NCBI RefSeq assembly: GCF_017744135.1
Contig: NZ_JAGHQU010000003.1
Span: forward strand, 186,001-250,000
DNA: 64,000 bases
Source of the DNA: Endozoicomonas sp. G2_2
Lineage (GTDB): Bacteria; Pseudomonadota; Gammaproteobacteria; Nevskiales; Salinisphaeraceae
Direction: 5' to 3'
In this document: positions 56,179 through 64,000 of the stretch, in pieces
How the letters are laid out: each line of letters starts with the position of its first letter
Numbering within the stretch: position 1 is the first letter of the stretch
The notes under the pieces: generated by a model
Databases searched by the model: none
What the model was told of the DNA's origin: nothing
The model's input: only the letters and a program-made list of their open reading frames with translations
Position numbers and translations under genes: made by a program

Positions 56179-57533
56179 TGTCCAAGCTGTCCACGCCCGC
56201 GATCTTCACGGCCGCACTGCTCGGCGCGCCCGCCTTCGCCCAGAACGCTACCGACGACAGGGCCGTCGATGCCATGGCGATCTACAACCGCGGCGCGGCG
56301 GTCATCCAGACCACGCGCGAAGTCGATCTCGATGCCGGCGCCCAGCGCGTCGGCTGGCCCATCAACGGCCGTCTGCGCGCCGATACGCTCTGGCTGGAAG
56401 GCGACGGCATACGGCTGACCGGCCTGAGCGCGCGCTCGAACGACGACAGCGGCGCCGGCCTGCTGGCCGCGCGTATCGGCCAGCCGGTCACGCTGCTGCG
56501 CGACGACGATGCCGGTCAGGTGCAGACCCGCGAGGCCACGCTCGTCGGCCTGAGCGGCGACACCGCGCTCGTGCGGGTCGACGATCGCATCGAACGGCTC
56601 ACGCCGAACTCACCCTGGCGGCTGGCGTGGCCGGCCGGTAGCAACGCGCCGGGCGGCCTGCAGCTGGATATCGACGCCGATAGCGCCGGGCGCCAGCCGT
56701 TGACGGCCACCTACCAGATCGACGGACCGAGCTGGCAGGCCAGCTATACCGGTCGATTCGACGCCGACGCGGGCGAGCTGTCGCTACAAAGTCTGGCGGT
56801 GATAGACAACAGTGGCGGTAGCGATCTGAATGCCAAACAGGCCTGGCTGGTCGCCGGCGACGTCGCGCGCGCCAACGGTCGTGGCCCGCAGCCGATGATG
56901 ATGGCGCGCAGCGAGGCCAAGATGAGCGACAGCGCGCCCGAGGCCGCGGGCGATACCTATCGATACGCGCTCGACGGCGCGCTCGAGGTGCCCGCCGGCG
57001 CCACCCATGCGGTTGCCATGATGACGCCGGTCACGCTCGATGCCGAGCGCCGCTATCGCTTCGAGAACAGTTTTCATGCGCTCGGGCGCGACGGCGCACG
57101 CGATCACGCCGCGGTGCAGCTGCAGTTCGACAACACCGCCGACCGGCCGCTGCCGGCCGGCGTGATACGGATCTACGACGGCAACCGCAGCGCCACGCTG
57201 ATGGGCGAGGATGCGATCGGCGATACGCCCGCAAATGCGCCGGTCACGCTGTCGCTGGGCACCGCGTTCGACATCACCGGCGAGCGCCGGATGATCGAGG
57301 ACACACGCACCGAGGGCGATCAGCGCCAGCGCAGCGTGGAGATCACCCTCTACAACGCCAGCGAGCGCGACGTGACCGTGGACGTTGCTGAACATCTGCC
57401 CCAGGAAGCCGAGATCGTGTCGAGCTCGACCGAACCGCGCGACGACAGCGCCGCCAATATGGCGACCTGGCATGTCGATGTGCCGGCCGGCGGTGAAACG
57501 ACGCTGCGCTACAGCGCGCGCTGGCCGAGCTAG
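56175..57533 (+). CDS. DUF4139 domain secreted protein
   Basis: This 452-residue precursor begins with a signal peptide (LSTPAIFTAALLGAPAFAQN). An N-terminal beta-rich part (VDAMAIYNRGAAVIQTTREV) is followed by the DUF4139 region (about 170-450) with ATYQIDGPSWQASYTGRFD and the C-terminal RSVEITLYNASERDVTVDVA. DUF4139 proteins are predicted envelope or secreted proteins of unknown function. It starts within the ampG stop and its end overlaps the convergent ispA stop by four bases. Confidence 0.82.
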   Translation: MMSKLSTPAIFTAALLGAPAFAQNATDDRAVDAMAIYNRGAAVIQTTREVDLDAGAQRVGWPINGRLRADTLWLEGDGIRLTGLSARSNDDSGAGLLAARIGQPVTLLRDDDAGQVQTREATLVGLSGDTALVRVDDRIERLTPNSPWRLAWPAGSNAPGGLQLDIDADSAGRQPLTATYQIDGPSWQASYTGRFDADAGELSLQSLAVIDNSGGSDLNAKQAWLVAGDVARANGRGPQPMMMARSEAKMSDSAPEAAGDTYRYALDGALEVPAGATHAVAMMTPVTLDAERRYRFENSFHALGRDGARDHAAVQLQFDNTADRPLPAGVIRIYDGNRSATLMGEDAIGDTPANAPVTLSLGTAFDITGERRMIEDTRTEGDQRQRSVEITLYNASERDVTVDVAEHLPQEAEIVSSSTEPRDDSAANMATWHVDVPAGGETTLRYSARWPS

Positions 57534-58417
57534 TGATCGCGTTGCACGATTTCGGCAGCGATCGCGCGTAGCGCGTCGGCAGACCCGCCGAATACCGCGA
57601 GCGCTTCCACAGCCTCGGCGTAGAGGCGATCGGCGTAGGCGCGGGCCGCTTCCAGACCCAGTAGGGCCGGGTAGGTCGCCTTGTCGTGGGCGATGTCGGC
57701 GCCCTGGGTCTTGCCGAGGGTGGCGGTGTCCGAATCGATATCGAGGACATCGTCGCGCACCTGAAAGGCCAGCCCGATCCGGGTGGCGAAACGATCCAGC
57801 GCATCGCGCTCGTGTGCCCTGAGGTCCGGCCGGCCGTCGGCGGCGAGACGCACGCAGGCGTGCAATAGCGCGCCGGTCTTCAGGCTGTGCAACCGTTCGA
57901 GGGTTTCGACATCGATCGCGCGGCCTTCGCTGGCCATGTCCAGCGCCTGGCCGCCCACCATGCCGCGCGAACCGCAGGCCCGGGCCAGCGTGGCCAGCCG
58001 CGCGGCACGGATCGTGTCAGTGACGCGCGGGTGGCGGTCGGTCGCGATCGTTTCGAACGCCAGGCTCTGAAGCGCGTCGCCGGCCAGTATCGCGGTCGCC
58101 TCGTCGAAGGCGATATGGGTGGTTGCGCGACCGCGGCGCAGCGCATCGTCGTCCATGGCGGGCAGATCGTCGTGGATCAGCGAATAGGCATGGATGTACT
58201 CGACCGCGCAGGCCGATGCGTCCAGCGCGTCCGGCTCGAGGCCGATCGCGGTGCCGGCGGCATAGACGAGCCGTGGCCGAATACGCTTGCCGCCGCCCAG
58301 CACGGCATAACGCATGGCTGCGTGCAGGCGCTCGGGCGATGCGTCGGCCGCGGGCAGCAGGTGTTCGAGTCGTGCCTGAATGCGTTGACTATAATCGGGG
58401 TTCTGACGGTCGGACAT
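57530..58417 (-). CDS. ispA: Farnesyl diphosphate synthase
   Basis: This 295-residue trans-prenyltransferase condenses IPP and DMAPP to farnesyl diphosphate. The first Asp-rich motif is in SLIHDDLPAMDDDALRRGRA and the second in FQVRDDVLDIDSDTATLG. GGGKRIRPRLVYAAG is the substrate-binding GKR segment. In E. coli ispA lies with xseB and dxs; neither is here. Instead it lies next to HpnG/HpnM-like genes and close to the mevalonate pathway genes, which supply its substrates. Confidence 0.94.
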   Translation of the reverse strand: MSDRQNPDYSQRIQARLEHLLPAADASPERLHAAMRYAVLGGGKRIRPRLVYAAGTAIGLEPDALDASACAVEYIHAYSLIHDDLPAMDDDALRRGRATTHIAFDEATAILAGDALQSLAFETIATDRHPRVTDTIRAARLATLARACGSRGMVGGQALDMASEGRAIDVETLERLHSLKTGALLHACVRLAADGRPDLRAHERDALDRFATRIGLAFQVRDDVLDIDSDTATLGKTQGADIAHDKATYPALLGLEAARAYADRLYAEAVEALAVFGGSADALRAIAAEIVQRDH

Positions 58418-58606
58418 GGCGGCGTGCTCGACGCTGACGGCAAGGTTCGAAACGAAGGCGCGCTAGCTAGCCACTAAAGCCGAAAGCCGTCAAATATGGC
58501 GACAGCAAACGACGAGCCGAAGCAAACGCATGCGAGATCCGAGACTGCCGGCCACCGACACCCGGCCATCGCCATCGGTCGATGCCACGCCAAAGCGGGC
58601 GGGGCG

Positions 58607-60063: not shown

Positions 60064-60645
60064 TCAGTCGGCGCGCAGACGTTGCACGGTCGCCCAGTGC
60101 TCGCTGCGGATGCGCGGCCATTCGAGCTGCAGCCACGGCGTGTAGCGCTGCGGGTTGGCGACCAGTTCGGCGTCCAGTGTTTCGGGCGCCACGGCTTCGC
60201 TGGCCACGATCTCGTGTGGGTTGGTGGCGATCGGCGTGGCTGAACGTGCCACATAAACCGAGCAGAGTTCGTGCTCGGCGCCGACGTCGCCGAAATGCGC
60301 GTGATACTCGAAGCGATAGAGAAACGTCATTTGCGCTTCCACGCCCAGTTCTTCGCGCAGGCGTCGCGCGGCGGCGTCATCCACGGTCTCGCCGCGGCGC
60401 GGATGGCTGCAGCAGCTGTTCGCCCAGTAGCCGCCCCAGAGCTGTTTGCCCGGTGCGCGCTGTTGGAGCCAGATGTTGCCGGCCTCGTCGAACAGGAAGA
60501 TCGAAAAGGCGCGATGCAGCACGCCGTCGCCCTCGTGGGCCTCGGCCTTGGGCTTGTAGCCCAGCACGTTGTCTTCGCTGTCGACGAGGATGAGCGGCTC
60601 GTCGTCGAAGGAGACAACCGGAGCGTCGTCTGCGGACTCGGCCAT
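60064..60645 (-). CDS. idi: Isopentenyl-diphosphate delta-isomerase, type I
   Basis: The ATG at 60645 has AGGAA upstream and gives 193 residues; TTG 60660 is less likely. The type I (Nudix-like) enzyme interconverts IPP and DMAPP. The active-site Cys is in WANSCCSHPRRGE (Cys79 by this start), followed by the Nudix-like helix DDAAARRLREELGVEA. The second catalytic pair is Glu124 and Glu126 in GAEHELCSVYVA. It lies 11 bp after the stop of the HMG-CoA reductase-mevalonate kinase gene, in the same direction, and is probably co-transcribed. Confidence 0.93.
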   Translation of the reverse strand: MAESADDAPVVSFDDEPLILVDSEDNVLGYKPKAEAHEGDGVLHRAFSIFLFDEAGNIWLQQRAPGKQLWGGYWANSCCSHPRRGETVDDAAARRLREELGVEAQMTFLYRFEYHAHFGDVGAEHELCSVYVARSATPIATNPHEIVASEAVAPETLDAELVANPQRYTPWLQLEWPRIRSEHWATVQRLRAD

Positions 60646-60656
60646 GAAATTCCTGT

Positions 60657-62933
60657 TCAACGTATTTCCGTGATGAAGGTGTTGTAGCCCGCGCTGCGCA
60701 TGGCGGAGGCGATGGTCTGGGTGCGCTCGGGCTCGGCGACAGCGATCATCGCGCCGCCGCCGCCACCGCCGGTCAGCTTGGCGCCGAGCGCGCCGTTGCG
60801 GCGCGCGATTTCCACCAGTTCCTCGATCTCGCGCGACGAGACCTGCAGCGCGTTGAGCAGGCCGTGGTCGATATTCATGAGTTCGCCGAGCTCGGCGATA
60901 TCGCCTTGCTTGAGGGCCTGCGCGCCAGCCAGCGCGAGCGCGTCGATCTGCGAGAAGATGCTTTCATAACGCGCCGGGTTCTTTTCCCAGGCCGCCCGCA
61001 CGCTGCCGACTGTCTGCATGGTCAGTGTCGCCACGCCGGACAGGCCGATGACCACGGGAATCGGCGCCGGGGTGTTCAGATGCCGAATTTCGGCGCGTGC
61101 GAGCGCGTTTTCCTTGCGGAACAGGATCGGCCGGCCGAAGGTCGCCAGCGTGTTGTCGATGCCCGATGGCGTGCCGTGGGCGATCTTTTCGCAGTCGAAG
61201 GCGAGGTTGGAGATCTCGCGCTCGCTGATCTCGACCTCGAAACAGCGCGCCATGGCACGGATCACAGCCACCGCGAGTGCGGCCGACGCACCAAGCCCGT
61301 TGGCGCGCGGGATATGCGGAAACACATCGATACGCATGCCCCGGTCGGCCAGGCCCAGGCGCTCGGCGATAAGCGTGATCGAGGCATGCAGCGAGCTGAC
61401 CGACCGCTCCGGCTCGGACAGGCGCATCTCCACGCCCCAGCGGGGGATCATCAGGTCGGTGTGTTCACGCTGCGCCTTGACCTCGGCACGGATATGCAAG
61501 GGTATGGGCGCGGCGATCGCGTGCCGGCCGTAGACCACCGAATGCTCGCCGAGCAGAATGATTTTGCCGTAGCCGATATCGCCCGCGGCGTCGGCGTGTT
61601 CGACGACCTCCTGCCGGTCGTTGCGCCCAGGCGCGCGCGTACGCTGGCTGTCTTCGAGGTCGGCGATGATCTCGCGCGCTTTCCATACCTTGATATCGCC
61701 AGCCGCGATCAGCCGGTCGACCACGTCGTCGAACACCGACTCGCTCGCCCCGGCGGCCATGGCCACGCTGCGTGCGTGCAGGGTCATGTGGCCGCGCTGG
61801 ATACCGTGCGTGGACAGCGCGCGGATGGCGGCAAAGTTCTGCGCCAGGCCGACCGCGCCCATCACCTCGGCGAGCTCCGGCGCAGACTCGACCCCGAGCA
61901 CGCGATGCGCGATGCGCACCGCCTGGTTGGATTCGACCTGCCCGCCGACCGTGCCGACCTTGAGCGGAATCTCGAGTTCGCCGACCAGATCGCCGGCCTC
62001 GTTGGCATACCACCGGGTCAGCGAACTGTAGCGCCCGGTTCGCGCGGCATAGGCATGGGCGGCGGCTTCGATCGCGCGCCAGTCGTTGCCGGTGGCGATC
62101 GCCACGGCGTCGATGCCGTTCATGATGCCCTTGTTGTGCGTGGTCGCGCGGTACGGATCGCGCTCGGCGAACTCGTTGGCGAGGATGATGCCGTCGCGCA
62201 CTTCGGCGCCGGAATAATCGCCGGCCGCCAGTTCCGCGACGGGGATCACCGCCTTCGAGCGCACCAGTGCGCGATCGGCCAAGTTCGACAGAATGCGCAG
62301 GAATACCCGCCCGCCGCTGATCTTTTCCACCAGCGGGGCCGCGCCCTCACACATGGTGTTGACCAGATTTGCGCCCATGGCATCGCGCGTGTCGACCAGC
62401 AGATGCACGACCAGCATGTCGCCATGGCCGGCCGTGGCGCCGTGGGTGTGGACCTCGATTTCGCGTGCACCGCCGCCGCGCGCGACCATGTTCGGGTGCA
62501 GGCTGTTGGCGAGGTTGAGGATCTCTTCGCTGTGCTGCAGCAGCGCCTGGCGCGCATGGGCCGGATGCGGCACGTTCACCACCTGGATCTGGCCGATAAG
62601 CAGCGGCCGCTCCGCGGTACTGGTGAACCCGCCCGTGCTGCGCACCAGCTTCGCCGCCGAACTGACCGCGGCAATGATCGACGGCTCCTCGACCACCATC
62701 GGCACGAGATAGTCGCGATCGTTGACCTGAAAATTGAGGCCCAGTCCCATCGGCAGGCCGAATACGCTGATCACGTTCTCGATCAGCCGGTCGGCCTGGT
62801 CGGCATCCAGCATGTGGGTGCCATCGATGAGCATGTCGTACTCGGCCTGGTCGATGACGTTGCGCTCGAGCAGCACACGCAGCCGGTTGGCCACGGAGAA
62901 CTTGTAGAACGATGGAATCCGGGACTGGCTCAT
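60657..62933 (-). CDS. Fused HMG-CoA reductase-mevalonate kinase
   Basis: One 758-residue frame joins two mevalonate pathway enzymes. Residues 1-430 form a class II HMG-CoA reductase close to the Pseudomonas mevalonii enzyme, with Glu83 (VVEEPSIIAA), Lys268 (THNKGIMNGID), Asp284 (TGNDWRAIEA) and His382 (GIQRGHMTLHARS) all present. After a linker (about 430-450) a GHMP mevalonate kinase starts with GYGKIILLGEHSVVYG. It has the ATP loop PRANGLGASAALAVA (about 541-555), catalytic Glu582 and Asp593 in CEKIAHGTPSGIDN, and KLTGGGGGGAM near the end. No stop, start or frame change separates the parts. The fused protein would make mevalonate from HMG-CoA and phosphorylate it in turn. Confidence 0.93.
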   Translation of the reverse strand: MSQSRIPSFYKFSVANRLRVLLERNVIDQAEYDMLIDGTHMLDADQADRLIENVISVFGLPMGLGLNFQVNDRDYLVPMVVEEPSIIAAVSSAAKLVRSTGGFTSTAERPLLIGQIQVVNVPHPAHARQALLQHSEEILNLANSLHPNMVARGGGAREIEVHTHGATAGHGDMLVVHLLVDTRDAMGANLVNTMCEGAAPLVEKISGGRVFLRILSNLADRALVRSKAVIPVAELAAGDYSGAEVRDGIILANEFAERDPYRATTHNKGIMNGIDAVAIATGNDWRAIEAAAHAYAARTGRYSSLTRWYANEAGDLVGELEIPLKVGTVGGQVESNQAVRIAHRVLGVESAPELAEVMGAVGLAQNFAAIRALSTHGIQRGHMTLHARSVAMAAGASESVFDDVVDRLIAAGDIKVWKAREIIADLEDSQRTRAPGRNDRQEVVEHADAAGDIGYGKIILLGEHSVVYGRHAIAAPIPLHIRAEVKAQREHTDLMIPRWGVEMRLSEPERSVSSLHASITLIAERLGLADRGMRIDVFPHIPRANGLGASAALAVAVIRAMARCFEVEISEREISNLAFDCEKIAHGTPSGIDNTLATFGRPILFRKENALARAEIRHLNTPAPIPVVIGLSGVATLTMQTVGSVRAAWEKNPARYESIFSQIDALALAGAQALKQGDIAELGELMNIDHGLLNALQVSSREIEELVEIARRNGALGAKLTGGGGGGAMIAVAEPERTQTIASAMRSAGYNTFITEIR

Positions 62934-63002: not shown

Positions 63003-64000
63003 CTATCGCACCTGCCGCGAATCCCCGATGTCGGCGCTGTCGATACGGACGCCGGCGGCGCCGAACATCAGGTCCACGATTTCTGCGCCGGCCTCGATGA
63101 GGGCGCGTCGTACTGCCTGTTCATTGGGGCCGCGGGCAACGAAAACCAGCCCTACATCGCCGCCGCCGGCGCCGGATGTCTTGAATACGCCGCCCGCGTC
63201 GGCGACGAGATCGGCGAGCGCATGATGCTGCGCGGAGACAATGCCGGCCTTCGCATGCGTATCGAGCGTACACAGCGCAGCAAAATAGGCGTCGGCAAGC
63301 GCCAGAAAATCGTTTGTGTCGGCCAGGCGCCGGGGCGCGGTTGCCGCAAGCTCGGCCAGGCGCCCGATATCGTCATTGTAGGCCCGGGGATGGGCTGAAG
63401 CGTAGGCGCGCACCCGGCCCACGAGGTCCGGTGTACTGGCGCCGGTGCCCGTCACAACCGCGAACGCGGCGAGATCGGCGGGCCAGGCAAGCGGGGTCGG
63501 CTCGGCGTCGCGCGTATAGCTGATCAAGCCGCCATATACCGCACTCGCCACATCGCCGCCGCTGCCGGCGCCGTCCTGCGCGTGCCGGTGGGCGCGAATG
63601 GCCGCCGTTGCAAGCGTGCGACGCGTGAGCGGCACACCGGCGTAATGCGCGAGTGCGGCATACAGCGCGGCGGCCACGGCAGCGCTCGACCCCAGTCCGA
63701 GCTTGTGGCCGTCGCGCGCGAAATCGGCGCTGTCGATGGTGATATGCACCGGCGTCGGCTCGATATCGGCGGTATTCAGGAAATCCTCGCGCACGGCATC
63801 GAACACGCCGAGCCTGGCTTCCACGTCACGCGCGAAAGCGGGGCGACGGCTTGCGTGCGGGCCGAGATCGAGCCTGTCGAGCCCGAGGTTCGGCGCGGTC
63901 AGCGACCAGCGCCCGCTGGGCGCGCGCGCCACGCGAACATGCACGCGCCGATCGACCGCGGTCAGCAGTGCGGGCGCGCCATCGAGCACGGCGTATTCGC
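63003..64000 (-). CDS. Phosphomevalonate kinase, 5' end beyond the window
   Basis: This GHMP kinase is truncated at its N-terminus by the window edge. The frame reads EYAVLDGAPALLTAV up to position 64000, the internal GEYAVLDG motif of these kinases, so the GTG at 63989 is the Val codon and not a start. The ATP loop is KLGLGSSAAVAAALYA and the substrate loop RHAQDGAGSGGDVASAVYGG, which resembles bacterial phosphomevalonate kinases more than mevalonate decarboxylases. It precedes the fused reductase-kinase gene by 69 bp in the same direction. The decarboxylase expected for the pathway is not visible. Confidence 0.82.
   Translation of the reverse strand, partial: EYAVLDGAPALLTAVDRRVHVRVARAPSGRWSLTAPNLGLDRLDLGPHASRRPAFARDVEARLGVFDAVREDFLNTADIEPTPVHITIDSADFARDGHKLGLGSSAAVAAALYAALAHYAGVPLTRRTLATAAIRAHRHAQDGAGSGGDVASAVYGGLISYTRDAEPTPLAWPADLAAFAVVTGTGASTPDLVGRVRAYASAHPRAYNDDIGRLAELAATAPRRLADTNDFLALADAYFAALCTLDTHAKAGIVSAQHHALADLVADAGGVFKTSGAGGGDVGLVFVARGPNEQAVRRALIEAGAEIVDLMFGAAGVRIDSADIGDSRQVR

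Follow-up and report, generated by a model that had tools for sequence, protein, structure and literature searches.

In the textbook arrangement of the mevalonate pathway, 3-hydroxy-3-methylglutaryl-coenzyme A (HMG-CoA) reductase (HMGR) and mevalonate kinase (MK) are encoded by separate genes. On a 64,000-nucleotide stretch of DNA from Endozoicomonas sp. G2_2 (positions 186,001 to 250,000 of contig NZ_JAGHQU010000003.1, the "window"), both enzymes are located in a single reading frame encoding 758 residues. This raises the questions of whether the two genes are indeed joined or were joined by an error, how widely such a protein is distributed, and what it may do. The join is conserved and widespread, and the protein is very probably a bifunctional mevalonate-pathway enzyme that should convert HMG-CoA into mevalonate-5-phosphate, probably with NADPH.

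Two complete domains in one frame

The first-pass annotation of the locus had described a single frame with a complete class II HMGR, including its four catalytic residues, a complete mevalonate kinase with ATP loop and catalytic Glu and Asp residues, and a linker of about 20 residues. All of this was borne out (Table 1). In the 758-residue protein, Pfam assigned HMG-CoA_red (PF00368) to residues 14 to 387 with 359.7 bits at a cut-off of 27 bits, GHMP N to residues 519 to 598 (61.6 bits), and GHMP C to residues 672 to 750 (61.8 bits). The NCBIfam model TIGR00532 was passed over residues 1 to 387 (410.9 bits, cut-off 259.95) and the mevalonate kinase equivalog TIGR00549 over residues 456 to 731 (246.4 bits, cut-off 163.05); a second mevalonate kinase model, NF003036, gave the kinase half 220.2 bits, which is below its 403-bit cut-off. 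An N-terminal acetoacetyl-CoA thiolase as in MvaE is absent according to Pfam and NCBIfam, with the reductase match beginning at residue 1; the partner domain of the reductase is the C-terminal GHMP kinase. The best stretch of each of the 42 sequence matches in the PDB was always within the reductase or the kinase part, and none spanned both.

The residues E83, K268, D284, and H382 of the reductase and K457, S550 in the ATP loop, E582, and D593 of the kinase did not vary in any of the 134 fused rows. Of these rows, 118 are distinct, because 16 pairs agree completely in the parts compared, mostly one gene met twice. The roles of the HMGR residues were assigned by alignment with the Pseudomonas mevalonii HMGR and its residue numbering, and the four kinase residues correspond to the Lys, the ATP-loop Ser, the Glu, and the Asp of mevalonate kinases.

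An AlphaFold2 model built from 50 fused sequences reached a mean predicted local distance difference test score (pLDDT) of 87.3 and a predicted template modeling (TM) score of 0.58, with confident domains and a relative orientation of the domains that was not fixed. The reductase half ends in a three-helix C-terminal flap (residues 378 to 393, 401 to 411, and 416 to 431). The last HMGR helix extends to residue 431 and the kinase part begins with a strand at residue 453, leaving 21 residues with a core of pLDDT below 50 at residues 433 to 441. The best Foldseek match was the P. mevalonii HMGR 9dcp_A with a TM score of 0.93 by target length; the mevalonate kinases of Leishmania major and Methanosarcina mazei ranked lower among the matches listed. 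With gaps counted as differences, the identity to the window protein over 73 fused relatives was 64% for the reductase, 6% for the linker, and 53% for the kinase. The aligned length of residues 432 to 453 varied in these relatives between 4 and 56, with a median of 17 and 22 in the window.

Distribution and descent of the fusion

A full-length fusion in one open frame was present in 18 of the 41 genomes searched, the own genome included. The genus contributed 14 of 14 genomes, its family another three, and a different family of the order one. None of the 18 contained a stop inside the frame, and the length of the linker differed among them. In 369 genomes drawn evenly from the class and searched with a match threshold of E ≤ 1e-20, 30 genomes matched. 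Nine of them had the full fusion, in G219 the fusion was interrupted by a contig end, 19 had an unfused HMGR match, and G191 matched the kinase part only.

A scan of a species-level genome collection, with the kinase half as query, returned at least 594 stretches, at least 582 of them encoding relatives, and the best 80 were analyzed. The three best matches were Salinisphaera contigs. Three same-genus genes had the same sequence as these contigs in the parts compared, and the genus of the window therefore appears to be Salinisphaera. Of the 80 loci, 74 had a near-complete HMGR that shares its frame with the kinase (in L125 with the kinase ended by the contig end), and five more (L055, L087, L096, L104, and L113) had the HMGR tail in frame until it was ended by the contig end. 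At L105 (bases 1 to 315), only the last 66 HMGR residues precede the kinase, and before them lies unrelated sequence with stops, which points to either contig chimerism or a disrupted gene. By their NCBI names, which may be wrong because many of these loci come from metagenome-assembled genomes (MAGs), the 74 fused loci belong to Pseudomonadota (52), Calditrichota (7), Actinomycetota (6), Acidobacteriota (2), and one each to Myxococcota, Ignavibacteriota, Bacteroidota, and Planctomycetota, with three unplaced. In a phylum sample centered on a Calditrichota genome, a single frame ran through the junction and included both domains in 35 of 40 genomes, in 32 of them at full length; three others had only pieces at contig ends and two had no match. 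The full fusion was found in 5 of 247 genomes of a phylum sample centered on Kapaibacterium, where 34 others had an unfused reductase match, and in 4 of 120 genomes of a family sample centered on Cryobacterium. The HMGR-MK fusion is a widespread architecture and not peculiar to the genome of the window.

An artifact, in which a lost stop or a shifted frame has erroneously merged two adjacent genes, would agree with the textbook arrangement of separate genes, with the absence of a fusion from 19 of the 29 class-sample genomes that have an HMGR match, and with L105, one of 80 scanned loci, where only the end of the HMGR remained after unrelated sequence. The same fusion occurs nevertheless in every searched genome of the genus and in independent assemblies of several phyla, and the frames of the 18 full-length cases are open with linkers of varying length. 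A hidden stop or frameshift around residues 430 to 450, which the first-pass annotation had considered, is thereby excluded. Due to the conservation across the genus, the 80-locus scan, and the Calditrichota sample, an artificial origin was ruled out and retains a negligible probability.

A mobile-element origin of the fusion was rejected: viral contigs, scanned with the single protein as query and hence for close relatives only, gave no match, and none of the 45 matching plasmid records covered 80% of the query; among the 20 of these 45 that were listed, the reductase part only was matched. On a plasmid of the haloarchaeon Halomontanus rarus (L223, NZ_CP119797.1), a bacterial-type class II HMGR annotated as "degradative" adjoins a citrate/2-methylcitrate synthase gene. 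The unfused HMGR matches L033 (G240), L166 (G499), and L185 (G701) contain in-frame stops, and these may be pseudogenes, assembly errors, or matches overrunning the gene end.

To place the two halves, 64 fused representatives with less than 75% mutual identity were taken from 133 full rows. In the HMGR tree (quick search, unrooted), one branch separated the 64 fused from 31 unfused domains with a Shimodaira-Hasegawa-like approximate likelihood ratio test (SH-aLRT) support of 99. This tree used 31 of 51 unfused rows, with the Bacteroidota rows thinned from 25 to 8 and L046, L147, and L159 left out, and kept the very long row L050. In the MK tree, also unrooted, one branch separated the 64 fused from 14 unfused domains with a bootstrap support of 97 and an SH-aLRT of 91 when three very long unfused rows (L051, L141, and L153) were left out; with them, the support of the split was 0. 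The unfused MK rows initially numbered 27, of which eight were fusions ended by contig ends or broken and were dropped, as were L147 and L157, further rows of genes already represented. No unfused row was inside the fused branch in either tree, with no special search for split copies. This indicates that the join looks long kept. The pairwise distances of the HMGR and MK halves of the 64 representatives were correlated (Mantel r of 0.81, with 0 of 2,000 permutations as high and 0.24 as the best), so that both halves mostly traveled together. The fused proteins probably form one clade.

In both trees, the nearest row to the window protein by path was L016 from its own family, and Cryobacterium-type fusions were among those that followed. 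The kinase tree placed the Cryobacterium-type fusions and the Salinisphaera family into one set of eight with a support of 99/97, and the branch joining them in the HMGR tree had a support of only 32. This hints at a lateral transfer, for which the unrooted trees give no direction. In 27 chosen genomes, the TIGR00549 cut-off was passed in exactly the eight fused and in none of the 19 unfused genomes; of the latter, G240 and G402 had no kinase match and the others weaker ones. Within the class sample, the kinase half thus forms a type of its own. Among the unfused kinases of the tree, those closest to it are stand-alone kinases of Microbacteriaceae (L168 to L171) with about 37 to 38% identity to the fused kinase, and the genomes of these loci had no HMGR match at the threshold used.

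Pathway genes around the fusion

The fusion is part of a cluster (Table 1) in the order diphosphomevalonate decarboxylase, phosphomevalonate kinase (PMK)-like kinase, fusion, and isopentenyl diphosphate (IPP) isomerase. The decarboxylase, which precedes the PMK-like gene, scored 268.1 bits over a cut-off of 171.35, and a divergent gene upstream is HMG-CoA-synthase-like. The genome of the window showed no HMGR match besides the fusion and no match for DXR or GcpE. The fusion was also its only mevalonate kinase match over the cut-off; two GHMP matches located upstream in the cluster were weaker.

Table 1. Features of the fusion gene and its surroundings, with positions given in the window
Feature	Position	Strand	Evidence
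Fused HMGR/mevalonate kinase gene, 758 amino acids	60657..62933	(-)	Single ATG-to-stop frame; Pfam and NCBIfam domains
Class II HMGR domain with the C-terminal flap that carries catalytic His382, residues 1-431	61641..62933	(-)	TIGR00532, Foldseek
Inter-domain linker, residues 432-452	61578..61640	(-)	Low pLDDT, low identity
Mevalonate kinase domain (GHMP fold), residues 453-758	60660..61577	(-)	TIGR00549, solved relatives
Upstream PMK-like GHMP kinase	63003..63998, continues past the window end in the contig	(-)	TIGR01220 111.5 bits
Downstream type I isopentenyl-diphosphate isomerase	60064..60660, longest frame, overlaps the stop of the fusion	(-)	TIGR02150 142.0 bits, cut-off 105.8
Farnesyl diphosphate synthase (polyprenyl synthetase), nearby	57530..58417	(-)	NF045485 344 bits, cut-off 275

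The pathway neighbors were often clustered with the fusion elsewhere, too. Counted by tblastn with the genes of the window, so that misses include divergent genes, the PMK-like gene was in the expected place in 48 and the decarboxylase in 47 of the 64 fused loci (out of 74) with enough upstream sequence, and the isomerase was present in 51 of the 72 (out of 74) with enough downstream sequence. All three were found in 33 of the 63 loci with both flanks.

Between positions 58496 and 60020 on the plus strand, the window also contains genes for a phosphorylase resembling HpnG, which scored 154.0 bits against a cut-off of 187.1, and for a protein resembling HpnM/MlaC, with 130.4 bits against a cut-off of 160.1. 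Since these scores are under the cut-offs and the genome had no match to the squalene/phytoene synthase family, the idea of a hopanoid link, with the cluster feeding squalene, was dropped. Both are possibly orphan hopanoid-associated genes.

Among 31 relatives tested for the 2-C-methyl-D-erythritol-4-phosphate (MEP) pathway, the 18 with the fusion (own genome included) showed no DXR and no GcpE match, while the 13 without it had DXR in 13 and GcpE in 12 cases. A further 43 genomes with the fusion were tested, of which 7 came from the class sample and 36 were chosen from the 80 scanned loci. The DXR cut-off (PF02670) was reached in 16 of them; nine of these matches were strong, four Cryobacterium matches were split near 1e-15, and three were marginal near 1e-4. 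A strict replacement of the MEP pathway by the fusion would agree with the 18 close relatives but does not hold in general, with the DXR cut-off reached in 16 and the GcpE cut-off in 11 of the 43 genomes. Four Cryobacterium loci (L056, L057, L060, and L061) and Rhodanobacter L094 come from genomes that combine the fusion with DXR-family and GcpE matches, representing two pathways. Of the three Dyella genomes (L063, L065, and L066), two had a DXR match but no GcpE and the third had neither.

Probable function of the fusion protein

The N-terminal class II HMGR would act as a dimer and reduce HMG-CoA to mevalonate, probably with NADPH. The kinase, tethered by the flexible linker to the end of the mobile flap of the reductase, would phosphorylate this mevalonate with ATP. 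One gene should in this way supply two consecutive steps, with the enzymes set at a ratio of 1:1. An ATP-driven, practically irreversible kinase beside a reversible reductase may pull the reductase forward, so that the production of mevalonate might be coupled to its first phosphorylation, as the first-pass annotation had proposed.

Several observations weigh against a bifunctional biosynthetic enzyme with such a coupling. The TIGR00532 model passed by the reductase half is named "degradative." Position 148 in the cofactor helix is Asn in the window protein, Lys, Asn, or Arg in 121 of 134 fused rows, and Ser in one, while the published NADPH motif has Ser at this place. The PMK-like neighbor, scored as the longer frame in L024, is under the TIGR01220 cut-off of 165.7, and the HMG-CoA-synthase-like gene, with 154.5 bits as its best score, is also under its curated cut-off. 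GcpE was above the cut-off in 11 of 61 fusion-bearing genomes, all 11 among the 43 further ones, which indicates that the fusion is not always the sole route; 50 of the 61 had no GcpE over the cut-off, and because many of these are MAGs or drafts, this absence is weak evidence. Finally, the variable linker of low confidence speaks against a built-in channel. A flexible, unconserved linker without fixed domain orientation points to tethering rather than to a sealed channel, and the linker looks like a tether in the alignment and in the model.

The name of TIGR00532 could mean that the reductase half is catabolic, oxidizing mevalonate to HMG-CoA in competition with the kinase, and the closest solved structures include the NADH-dependent P. 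mevalonii enzyme. In the literature, NADPH-dependent HMGRs are described by the motif (H/Y)xSxxxR and NADH-dependent ones by Dx(V/L)xxxL (PMC13370337), and the P. mevalonii HMGR uses NADH through Asp146, Leu148, and Leu152 (PMC10070635, in excerpt). This NADH-type helix is absent from the window protein, which has His146, Asn148, and Arg152 instead. His146 and Arg152 agree with the NADPH motif, and Asn148 does not; His146 was present in 131 and Arg152 in 133 of the 134 fused rows. Together with the biosynthetic cluster in a genome without DXR or GcpE match, this makes a catabolic function very improbable. The label "degradative" is a poor guide for the window reductase as judged by these residues, and for the fused reductases, NADPH or dual cofactor use in the biosynthetic direction is predicted. 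The kinase half may alternatively have drifted to another GHMP substrate, for instance by mevalonate 3-phosphorylation, beside a canonical reductase. In favor of this, the GHMP superfamily covers diverse functions, and the kinase half weakly matches many of its families. The TIGR00549 equivalog was passed by 83 bits, however, the best solved matches are mevalonate kinases, and no other MK was above the cut-off in a genome with PMK-like, decarboxylase, and isomerase genes, so that such a drift is hardly to be expected.

The biosynthetic bifunctional enzyme may work in several ways. Likeliest is a pair of catalytic domains that act independently and are connected by a flexible linker. In class II reductases, the catalytic His is located on a C-terminal flap that closes upon ligand binding (PMC10070635, in excerpt). 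The mevalonate may be caught by the tethered kinase when this flap opens, or the state of the kinase may gate the reductase; such a flap coupling is unlikely. If it were true, the fusion would be a self-propelled catalyst of two steps that holds free mevalonate at a low level, a property retained across many phyla. Much more weight has to be given to a plain co-expression fusion, in which both domains work and the fixed stoichiometry is the only effect, without kinetic benefit over separate proteins. The linker, conserved neither in sequence nor in length, the lack of a fixed domain orientation, and the frequent clustering of pathway neighbors with the fusion all agree with this possibility, which comes somewhat short of an even chance. 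On the other side, the join appears long kept in view of the fused branches free of unfused rows, and this hints at a benefit without measuring it. The odds of a bare co-expression fusion and of a gain by proximity are almost equal.

Class II HMGRs of at least three kinds were seen in the Gammaproteobacteria of the class sample (G056 to G402, loci L032 to L050). One is the fused type, a second is about 48 to 53% identical to the window protein with Asp at position 146 among the rows listed (L032 to L035), and a third is more distant (about 36 to 45%) with Ala at position 146 among the rows listed (L036, L037, and L041).

The nearest natural fusions known to us are MvaE and IspDF. MvaE joins the non-adjacent steps 1 and 3 of the pathway, whereas the window fusion joins adjacent steps. 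MvaE of Enterococcus faecalis, a thiolase/HMGR fusion, likewise is a natural mevalonate-pathway fusion with a class II HMGR, but its thiolase is N-terminal and its reductase C-terminal (PMC10070635, in excerpt), while in the window fusion the mevalonate kinase follows the flap of the reductase. IspDF of the MEP pathway is also a bifunctional fusion for isoprenoid precursors and common in bacteria (PMC13001223, in part), although it belongs to another pathway and covers non-consecutive steps, in contrast to the consecutive ones here. The P. mevalonii HMGR (1qax and 9dcp) has about 50% identity, the same fold, and the same catalytic residues in the alignment, but is a stand-alone enzyme with the NADH-type helix described above. 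The closest solved relatives of the kinase half, the mevalonate kinases of M. mazei (6mde) and L. major (2hfs), were solved as stand-alone chains and are 33% and 27% identical to it in structural alignments; the M. mazei enzyme is feedback-resistant (PMC5817203, in excerpt).

The first-pass annotation had reckoned with a fusion that is common and already characterized. Common it is, but no description of an HMGR-MK fusion was found in full-text searches of the open-access literature, judged by title and beginning of the abstract among the matches listed, with most subscription journals and the architecture databases outside this search. The main text of a 2026 review on the diversity of bacterial isoprenoid pathways uses "fusion" only for IspDF and does not contain "fused" (PMC13001223), the main text of a 2026 preprint on 6,924 bacterial HMGR nodes contains neither "mevalonate kinase" nor "fused" nor "bifunctional" (PMC13370337), and for Wenzhouxiangella, the mevalonate pathway has been described with no fusion mentioned in the excerpt. 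The parts are known and the join is new to the literature searched, and the architecture may well be listed in databases without comment.

For the annotation of these genomes, a family match would label the reductase half as "degradative," and surveys that assign one function to one protein can miss one of the two steps. The HMGR-MK fusion is a candidate part for engineered isoprenoid pathways, and it offers a natural test of whether proximity speeds up a reversible step that precedes an ATP-driven one.

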